Shown here one piece after another: positions 42,668-45,643 of a stretch of 64,000 nt of DNA. Source of the stretch: Rhizobium sp. WSM4643. Its GTDB lineage: Bacteria; Pseudomonadota; Alphaproteobacteria; Rhizobiales; Rhizobiaceae. Below the pieces are notes generated by a model, which saw only the letters and a program-made list of their open reading frames with translations, made no database searches and was not told the DNA's origin. Each line of letters begins with the position of its first letter. Positions within the stretch are counted from its first letter, which is position 1. The stretch is from NCBI RefSeq assembly GCF_025152745.1, contig NZ_CP104040.1:1674001-1738000 (forward strand), written 5' to 3'. Both the position numbers and the translations under genes were made by a program.

Positions 42668-44098
42668 TCAGGCGCTTTCGGCAAGCTTCGGTTCTTGACC
42701 GAGCCAGGTGCCGCAGTCGGCAAGGGCGCGGCGTGCGATCAGCTGCCGCTTCATGATCGTCTTGTCCTTGCCGCGGAAGCGCTTGACGCCTTCGGGCTTG
42801 ACGATCGAGCCCGGCTGGAGTTCCGGAAACAGCCCGAAATTGATGTTCATCGGCTGGAACGATCGTTTGCCCGGCTCCTCGTGGGTGACCAAGTGCCCAC
42901 CGGTGATATGACTAAGCAGCGAGCCGAGCGCCGTCGTCGCCGGCGGCAGCGAGATCGCCTCGCCCTTGCGTTCCGCGGCGGCGAAACGCCCGGCCAACAG
43001 CCCGACGCTGGCACTTTCCACATAACCCTCGCAGCCGGTGATCTGGCCGGCGAAACGCAGGCCGGGCCGCGATTTCAGCGTCAGCGACGGGTCGAGCAGG
43101 GTAGGCGAGTTGATATAGGTATTGCGGTGCAGCCCGCCGAGACGGGCAAATTCCGCATTTTCCAGACCCGGGATCATCCGGAAGATGTCCGCCTGCGCGC
43201 CATATTTCAGCTTCGTCTGGAAGCCAACCATATTGTAGAGCGTGCCGAGTGCATTGTCCTGCCGCAGTTGCACGACGGCATAGGCCTTGACCGTCGGATT
43301 ATGCGCGTTCGTCAGCCCCATCGGCTTCATCGGTCCGTGGCGCAGTGTCTCGCGGCCGCGTTCGGCCATCACCTCGATGGGCAGGCAGCCGTCAAAATAA
43401 GGCGTACCCTCCCATTCCTTGAAGCCGACCGTGTCGCCTGATATCAGCGCGTCGACGAAGGCATTGTACCGCGCCTCGTCCATCGGGCAGTTGATGTAAT
43501 CCTTGCCGGTGCCGCCAGGCCCGACCTTGTCGTAGCGCGACTGATACCAGCAGATGTCCATGTCGATGCTCTCGCGGTAGACGATCGGCGCGATGGCGTC
43601 GAAGAAGGCAAGCGAATCCTCGCCGGTTTCCACCTGGATGGCGCTCGCGAGCGACGGCGCCGTCAACGGTCCGGTGGCAACGATGGCCAGGTCCCAATCC
43701 TTCGGCGGCAGGCCGGTGACCTCTTCACGCACGACGGTGATCAGCGGGTGGTCATGGACGGCTTTGGTCACCGCCTCAGAGAAGCCATCGCGATCGACGG
43801 CGAGCGCACCACCGGCCGGTACCTGGCATCGATCGGCAGCGGCCATGATCAGCGAGCCCGCCATGCGCATCTCGGCATGGATGACGCCGACGGCATTGCT
43901 GGTCGCGTCATCGGACCGGAAAGAATTGGAGCAGACAAGTTCGGCAAGACCGTCGGTCTTGTGCGCATCCGTGCCGCGCACCCCGCGCATTTCATGCAGG
44001 ATGACCGGAACGCCGGAATTGGCGATCTGCCAGGCGGCTTCCGAACCGGCAAGCCCACCGCCGACGACGTGGATAGGGGAATAGGAGATCGTGTTCAT
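42668..44098 (-). CDS. trmFO: Methylenetetrahydrofolate-tRNA uracil-5-methyltransferase TrmFO
   Basis: A 476-residue FAD-dependent tRNA methyltransferase that makes ribothymidine at position 54 (T-loop) using 5,10-methylene-THF. The FAD site [18 protein letters not shown] is at residues 9-26. The catalytic-region signature [11 protein letters not shown] (about 54-64) and the long [19 protein letters not shown] (about 335-353) and [26 protein letters not shown] motifs are all present. TrmFO is used instead of TrmA by many alphaproteobacteria and firmicutes. Convergent with the preceding gene. Confidence 0.95.
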
Positions 44099-44190: not shown

Positions 44191-44334
44191 TTAGCGGAAC
44201 GAGCGGGATGCGATATTGCGGATGTCGTAGCGGCTAACGCCGATATCGGACAGGGTCTGGTTCGAAAGGCCGCCGAGTTCATTGAGCGTGCGACGGTAGC
44301 TGAGCCAGCTTCTTGCAATGCGGATCGGGTTCAT
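44191..44334 (-). CDS. DUF1127 micro-protein (first copy)
   Basis: A 47-residue basic protein starting M-N-P-I-R-I-A-R-S-W. The DUF1127 core is LNELGGLSNQTLSDIGVSRYDI (about 18-39). DUF1127 (YjiS-like) proteins are conserved small arginine-rich proteins; in Agrobacterium and other alphaproteobacteria some members affect stress responses, phosphate or RNA-related regulation. It is one of two adjacent copies, each with its own terminator, both on the minus strand between trmFO and the small RNA locus. Confidence 0.85.
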   Translation of the reverse strand: MNPIRIARSWLSYRRTLNELGGLSNQTLSDIGVSRYDIRNIASRSFR

Positions 44335-44549
44335 TGTCTTCTTCCTATGTCCGCGGGACGGCGGGATCGCCTGTCTCTCTGCGGTTGATGTTTATATAGG
44401 CGAGAACCGTCCGATTGTGCAGTGCAAATAAAAGGCGTCTGCCATGCAATTGTGCACTATGATGCTCTTCAATTAAGCAGAGGATATTTTTTGAGCGGGC
44501 TAAACAAGCGGAAAACATGCAACCACCGCGGCCACCACGTGCAGACAAA

Positions 44550-44582
44550 AGAAAACGCCCGCTGTGTGTACAGCGGGCGTTT
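44550..44582 (-). terminator. Terminator of second DUF1127 gene
   Basis: Minus-strand AACGCCCGCTGTAC / GCGGGCGTTTTC hairpin with T-run, about 45 bases after the stop of the 48-residue gene. Confidence 0.85.
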
Positions 44583-44627
44583 CAATCGAGAACAATCCTG
44601 CTTGGGAGGAGCAGCGATCGCCTGGAA

Positions 44628-44774
44628 TTAGCGGGAAGAAGCCTCACGGGCAACGCGATGGATGTCCGAACGGTCGATGCCGAGATCGTGCAATTCGCGG
44701 TTGGTCATGCGGCCGAGTTCCGTGACGGTCTGACGATACTTGCGCCAGTTGTTGAAAGAGCGAGAGAAGTTCAT
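44628..44774 (-). CDS. DUF1127 micro-protein (second copy)
   Basis: A 48-residue protein starting M-N-F-S-R-S-F-N-N-W, with core VTELGRMTNRELHDLGIDRSDIHRVA (about 17-42). It matches the first copy at the ELGxLxNxxLxDxGxxRxDI pattern while differing at the ends, so the two are paralogs that arose by an old duplication. A ribosome-binding site (AAAGGGGCTTACC-like) lies before the ATG. Its own terminator suggests independent expression. Confidence 0.85.
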   Translation of the reverse strand: MNFSRSFNNWRKYRQTVTELGRMTNRELHDLGIDRSDIHRVAREASSR

Positions 44775-45202: not shown

Positions 45203-45325
45203 CAAAAACGCCCGCCGGGGGAGGATCCGGCGGGCGTGTTATGGTGACTGACAACTGGGAGGAGGAGTGTTGCCAGTCTATCGCAGCGCGCTGGGAGGAG
45301 GAGTGCGCGGCTGCGAATCTCGTCA
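45203..45325 (-). ncRNA. Alpha-r14 / NfeR1-type trans-acting small RNA
   Basis: On the minus strand three consecutive hairpins are seen. Hairpin 1 (45283-45314) and hairpin 2 (45246-45278) each have a loop reading CTCCTCCTCCCA. Hairpin 3 (45208-45237) is an ACGCCCGCCGG / CCGGCGGGCGT stem with loop ATCCTCCCC and a following T-run, an intrinsic terminator. This matches the rhizobial alpha-r14 family (NfeR1, Smr14C2 in S. meliloti, about 123 nt), which exposes anti-Shine-Dalgarno CCUCCUCCC loops for pairing with many transporter and regulator mRNAs. The 5' end is estimated, and no promoter is asserted. Confidence 0.8.
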
Positions 45326-45326
45326 C

Positions 45327-45643
45327 GGACAATGCATCCGCGGGCGTCCGGCTGATGCCGGGCCGGGGCGCCATCCCCGTGCTTTGATGTGTTGATCAAT
45401 AGTATGACTAATGAATATTGTGCAGTGCAATAGATTCATGCCGGATATGCGAAATACGCATATCTCTCCGTCCATAAGCTTATATTAGCGCGTCTGGCGT
45501 TAGCGGCTGGTTAACACTCGGTACTATTTAGACCAGTGAGGAACTTGTATGTTTGTTGCAGAGCGTTTTGCGAACACCGGTCCTGCGTCTATAACGGCGT
45601 GAGCCGCAGGCGCAGTCGGCGTTGCAGAAATAAGGGGTAGGGC
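45327..45643. other. 317-base gap upstream of DUF2157 gene
   Basis: No gene seen. It should hold the upstream region of the small RNA on the minus strand and the promoter of the 45644 operon. AT-rich palindromic traces at 45410-45500. Confidence 0.4.

Follow-up and report, generated by a model that had tools for sequence, protein, structure and literature searches.

An ar14 small RNA of Rhizobium sp. WSM4643 with a predicted structured 5′ leader and a putative promoter resembling that of a neighbouring DUF1127 gene

The minus strand of a 64,000-nucleotide stretch of the Rhizobium sp. WSM4643 genome (contig NZ_CP104040.1, positions 1,674,001 to 1,738,000; hereafter the window, with positions counted from its first letter) carries what is, by its sequence, a real member of ar14 (RF02344), a known family of small RNAs that block ribosome-binding sites and of which NfeR1 of Sinorhizobium meliloti is the founding member. 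The 5′ end of this RNA probably lies near 45390, giving a predicted transcript of about 187 nt that would reach about 70 bases beyond the family model. Family, mechanism and type of locus are already known; the new part is the leader together with the shared promoter. To the explanation that best accounts for the whole, a trans-acting ar14 (‘cuckoo’) sRNA in a conserved gene cluster, made as an RNA of about 187 nt that joins an anti-Shine-Dalgarno core to a leader domain, we assign a probability of roughly 80%.

A preliminary description of this DNA had proposed a small RNA of the alpha-r14/NfeR1 type with three adjacent stem-loops on the minus strand at 45203–45325, and had suggested a covariance-model search. 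This search returned RF02344 (Rfam ar14) over its full length (model positions 1–123) at 45321–45203 of the minus strand, with 113.4 bits (cut-off 58.8) and an E value of 3.3e-20, and so bears out the alpha-r14 architecture, while the CcsR1 model (RF02791) scored the same copy with 32.8 bits, under its cut-off of 65.3. The three stem-loops were recovered when 45203–45325 of the minus strand was folded (−58.3 kcal/mol, z −7.30, 0 of 200 shuffles equally stable). Within the ar14 core (45203–45321), hairpin 1 (45281–45316) and hairpin 2 (45246–45278) present CTCCTCCTCCCA in their loops, at 45292–45303 and 45256–45267, respectively, on stems of unrelated sequence, exactly as had been claimed for the first two loops. 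Hairpin 3 (45208–45237), with the loop ATCCTCCC, is followed by TTTTTG and is terminator-like, in keeping with the role previously given to the last stem. The two loops hold the only exact copies of CTCCTCCTCCCA in the 64-kb window, in which 0.01 would be expected, and their tandem arrangement was reproduced in none of 100 shuffles; they are therefore not a product of chance. The ar14 loop motif CCUCCUCCC is present in loops 1 and 2; loop 3 is shortened and contains UCCUCCC only.

Conservation was assessed on 70 sequences of this locus drawn from the 148 genomes that gave a match; 30 were returned automatically, and 40 were picked by hand, mostly among the more divergent ones. Mean column conservation amounted to 0.998, 0.996 and 0.964 in loops 1, 2 and 3 and to 0.898, 0.901 and 0.933 in the corresponding stems. 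The loops are thus nearly invariant and the stems more variable, which agrees with the earlier suggestion that the loop is the selected part. Both exact 12-mers are retained in 67 of the 70 sequences and one of them in the other three. As a family, the core is ordinary for these bacteria, since 146 of the 151 genomes in the family sample, and 105 of its 109 genera, have an ar14 match. The genome under study itself has eight matches on four contigs, all over the cut-off. Four of them (L004–L007) possess an additional 5′ anti-Shine-Dalgarno hairpin with CCTCCTCCC and represent a four-hairpin form. With 79 bits, L008 (C2:176502-176617) is the lowest-scoring own copy; its first loop (AACCCCTCCGA) is damaged, it lacks the LsrB consensus, and it is possibly decaying. 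The host belongs to the R. leguminosarum group: the DUF2157 protein encoded beside the window copy shares 99% identity with its counterpart in R. leguminosarum Vaf-46 and 94% with the one in R. johnstonii 3841, a strain in which the sRNA locus is present as well (L145).

The start of the RNA was approached through its promoter. A proposed −35 element, CTGCAC (45420–45425, minus strand), is part of TTGCACTGCACAAT (45417–45430) and is followed after 17 nt by a proposed −10 element, CTATTG (45397–45402); this spacing is the same in all 70 locus sequences. Still further upstream lies a TGCR-N6-GCAT box (TGCGTATTTCGCAT, 45447–45460), and in all 70 aligned sequences 56 nt separate the column of this box from that of TACTAT, the distance from TACTAT to the core ranging from 40 to 86 nt. 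Immediately upstream of 45325, no promoter-like letters with conserved spacing were found in the same 70 sequences. With the putative promoter about 70 nt upstream, its internal spacing fixed and its distance to the core variable, a start of the RNA at 45325 is improbable. The transcript of about 123 nt given in the preliminary description, a length within the range of about 115–125 nt expected of an ar14 RNA, is thus probably too short, a covarying stretch lying between the conserved promoter and that position. The −10 element predicts a start at about 45390 (45388–45394) and the box distance of NfeR1 one at about 45388; for NfeR1, the available text of PMC10746234 gives a CTTAGAC-N17-CTATAT promoter and places the box at −72 to −60.

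Box and core are 139 nt apart in the window copy and 66 nt apart in NfeR1-like copies. Exactly 66 nt were measured in two own copies (L001 and L002), the former with CTATAT directly before its core, and 103 nt in two of the own four-hairpin copies (L005 and L007), the other two (L004 and L006) being without a strict match. Among 29 further loci of the genus (L009–L037), the distance is 66 nt in 22, 103 nt in one, 139 nt in one and 140 nt in one; four have no strict box match, one of which (L030) is a truncated locus that was probably read in the wrong orientation. Copies from other genera were represented by 80 loci (among L180–L259), hand-picked among the matches listed in the family sample, and 14 of these have box and core 66 or 67 nt apart.

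Between promoter and core, the proposed leader (45322–45391, minus strand) was modelled as three hairpins: A (about 45364–45379, loop AUGGCG), B (about 45349–45360) and C (about 45324–45342). The underlying alignment comprised 63 distinct leaders, left after four loci with deleted or different leaders (L092, L094, L097 and L107) and three duplicates had been taken out of the 70. With 16 named pairs, 93.3% of the cells are paired, and two-sided changes occur in 97 cells versus 27.7 in shuffles, ten pairs having at least one. When partners were slid, 32–45% of the cells were paired, a control that leans in favour of the model because the structure was drawn from the same sequences. RNAalifold recovered seven pairs from this alignment and missed hairpin C. 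Folded alone, the leader of strain WSM4643 shows no exceptional stability (z −1.46; 18 of 200 shuffles did as well), and at minimum energy it adopts a long-range helix that closes the leader in place of the three hairpins. This helix was rejected, since it has no covariation support (77.1% of cells paired, 75.2% when shuffled; two-sided changes 2 vs 2.0); its slid versions pair less (21–47%). The loop of hairpin A reads ATGGCG in 41 of the 63 leaders and ATGGCA, GTGGCG or GTGGCA in 18. An upstream open reading frame was likewise considered and discarded: in 64 of the 70 sequences the conserved loop contains a start-like ATG, GTG or TTG, but frames and stops shift between relatives.

Of the 39 named Rhizobium loci, 36 are matched by a covariance model of the leader, two of these weakly; among the eight own ar14 copies, the model matches the window copy only, and a second match in the own genome (25.5 bits) falls into coding-like DNA and was taken as chance. 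A search through 297 family genomes, in which the first filter was weak, gave matches in 5, all from the own genus, and with filters off no such leader was detected in the 80 ar14 loci of other genera (best score 11 bits, E 0.68). The available text of the literature on NfeR1, ar14 and Rhizobium sRNAs yielded no description of such a leader, which may be noted in the 2015 cuckoo-RNA, 2017 NfeR1 and 2012 ar14 papers; in the available text of the R. etli tiling-array paper, the window locus was not identifiable.

Downstream of the sRNA and on the same strand follow two short DUF1127 genes, the first at 44628–44774 (48 aa; Pfam PF06568, 59 bits) and the second at 44191–44334 (47 aa; PF06568, 49.6 bits), and the cluster ends with the GidA-family gene trmFO (42668–44098; PF01134). 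The window contains exactly two copies of TTGCACTGCACAAT, one upstream of the sRNA and one, as part of a promoter-like site (TTGCACTGCACAAT...CTATAT, 44394–44427, minus strand), upstream of the second DUF1127 gene, both followed by a CTAT-type −10 at equal distance. Paired sites of this type exist in 31 of the 39 named loci, a single one in four and none in four. A stricter pattern ending in T picked out the DUF1127 site alone in the whole genome, with nothing in the reversed control; the sRNA site, with G as its last letter, is not matched. The putative sRNA promoter therewith resembles that of a DUF1127 gene of the same conserved cluster. On the sRNA strand, 33 of the 39 named Rhizobium loci carry two or more DUF1127 genes together with TrmFO, and the other six have two DUF1127 genes without a TrmFO match in the stretch examined. 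Directly 3′ of the first DUF1127 gene (44545–44630, minus strand; z −5.75), a single anti-Shine-Dalgarno hairpin with a CUCCUCCC loop is combined with a strong terminator-like hairpin. A second ar14-type motif pair is located at the equivalent place in some other genera, and the element may possibly be the remnant of a second ar14 copy, a worn-down sRNA.

The order sRNA-DUF1127-DUF1127-trmFO was found in all eight loci of other genera that were chosen from the 80 copies for their upstream region, one of them with three DUF1127 genes; one or two sets of anti-Shine-Dalgarno motifs precede the DUF1127 genes and, in some, also lie between them. A similar promoter is present 55–211 nt upstream of the core in 13 of the 80 copies, with different intervening sequence, and in at least two of these (L185 and L253) the interval reads as a DUF1127 gene and not as a leader. 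A DUF1127-like frame, identified by a loose motif, precedes 32 of the 80 copies, its stop lying within 12 nt in 22. In L197, L202, L211, L224 and others (L180–L259), ar14 starts no more than a dozen bases from a DUF1127-like stop, as if such copies were made from the 3′ UTR of the DUF1127 gene. DUF1127 proteins are known to be associated with CcsR-like RNAs in what is called the CIN1 locus (available text of PMC10253847). This type of locus is marked by a short DUF1127 gene next to the RNA and on its strand, and two such genes lie downstream here.

Other explanations of the locus have to be weighed. The RNA could be a plain ar14 RNA of 119–123 nt from about 45325, the conserved stretch upstream being merely regulatory DNA; the boundary of the Rfam model lies there, a length of 123 nt is reported for the NfeR1 transcript in the available text of PMC10746234, and the leader of this strain has no unusual folding energy. 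We consider this unlikely in view of the conserved −35/−10 pair about 70 nt upstream, with none directly before 45325, and of the intervening stretch, which covaries as RNA. A similarly small chance falls to the idea that the whole region belongs to the downstream DUF1127 gene as its leader, in which the ar14 hairpins act as a cis attenuator and the short RNA is a by-product. The strong terminator-like hairpin about 430 nt upstream of the DUF1127 gene speaks against it, as do loops that are those of a trans-acting family. DUF1127 genes do follow on the same strand, and a S. meliloti DUF1127 gene is controlled by leader attenuation according to the available text of PMC12218461, but that case needs an upstream open reading frame, and no conserved one was found in the window leader. 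Least probable is that the copy is a silent, untranscribed relic. A review, in the part available, states that one of six S. meliloti ar14 copies was reliably detected on Northern blots, the other five giving no reliable signal under the conditions used; at the window locus, however, relatives with as little as about 74% DNA identity still maintain the promoter spacing, the leader pairing and the loops, which has the look of selection and not of decay.

For the preferred reading, a trans-acting RNA of about 187 nt, we propose that a sigma-70-type promoter (45397–45425) starts transcription near 45390 and that the RNA would end at the terminator hairpin (45208–45237). In its 3′ two thirds, the three hairpins with their CUCCUCCUCCC-type loops would mimic the anti-Shine-Dalgarno end of 16S rRNA and could, in this species, base-pair with several mRNAs at their GGAGG-rich ribosome-binding sites and so block translation. 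We infer this action by analogy with NfeR1, for which the available text of PMC10746234 shows repression through redundant anti-Shine-Dalgarno loops and describes it as proceeding without Hfq. The start region of the own ntrB gene pairs with loop 1 at −16.6 kcal/mol, a value equalled by 54 of 500 shuffles. The 5′ third would form a separate three-hairpin domain, most likely, and this is a guess, a stabilizing or handling module; the conserved loop of hairpin A may be read by a protein, and cleavage would possibly release the core. The closest lead on the role of the leader is CcaF1, the Rhodobacter DUF1127 protein that binds RNA and promotes the maturation of neighbouring sRNAs (available text of PMC10253847); a counterargument is that DUF1127 proteins of other species act via proteins (available text of PMC12501420). 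A more far-reaching version, on balance improbable and offered tentatively, sees a two-domain regulator, in which an anti-Shine-Dalgarno domain is joined to a domain bound by the neighbouring, similarly promoted DUF1127 protein; sRNA and handler would rise together, apart from the LsrB/NtrC-controlled NfeR1 branch.

As to that branch, the LsrB consensus (GCAT-N3-TG-N3-T; available text of PMC8844928) is absent at the window copy and in 69 of the 70 locus sequences and present at six of the eight own copies, and no NtrC-type site (TGC-N11-GCA) was found within 260 nt upstream of the window core. Judged by its promoter region, the window copy looks like a differently controlled paralog and not like an NfeR1 ortholog. 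Own copy L002 (C1:4404877-4404997), with the LsrB consensus and an NtrC-type site at 111 nt upstream, is a better candidate for the NfeR1 counterpart. With the promoter as a ruler, at least three arrangements of the ar14 family are suggested: promoter at the core, promoter plus an additional anti-Shine-Dalgarno hairpin, and promoter plus a leader without the anti-Shine-Dalgarno motif. If true, this would explain the coexistence of near-identical anti-Shine-Dalgarno RNAs in one genome, control and front part differing while the loops stay constant. The promoter shared with DUF1127 makes a functional link between anti-Shine-Dalgarno RNA and DUF1127 protein testable in rhizobia.

Compared with known systems, the window copy is like NfeR1 and ar14 in its full-length model match, its three hairpins with anti-Shine-Dalgarno loops on variable stems and its terminator at the end; it differs in its predicted promoter, which is placed about 70 nt farther from the core and separated from it by a putative structured leader, in having neither the LsrB consensus nor the NtrC-type site of NfeR1, and in its shortened third loop. 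With the four-hairpin relative RFM SmelA099 (available text of PMC3927594) it shares the loop motif and the modular hairpins, whereas its own extra hairpins are without the anti-Shine-Dalgarno motif. The CcsR1-4/CcaF1 system of Rhodobacter sphaeroides is similar in that anti-Shine-Dalgarno RNAs adjoin a short DUF1127 gene, but CcsR1-4 are located downstream of this gene and are cut from its transcript (available text of PMC10253847); the window sRNA, in contrast, lies upstream of the DUF1127 genes and has its own predicted promoter.
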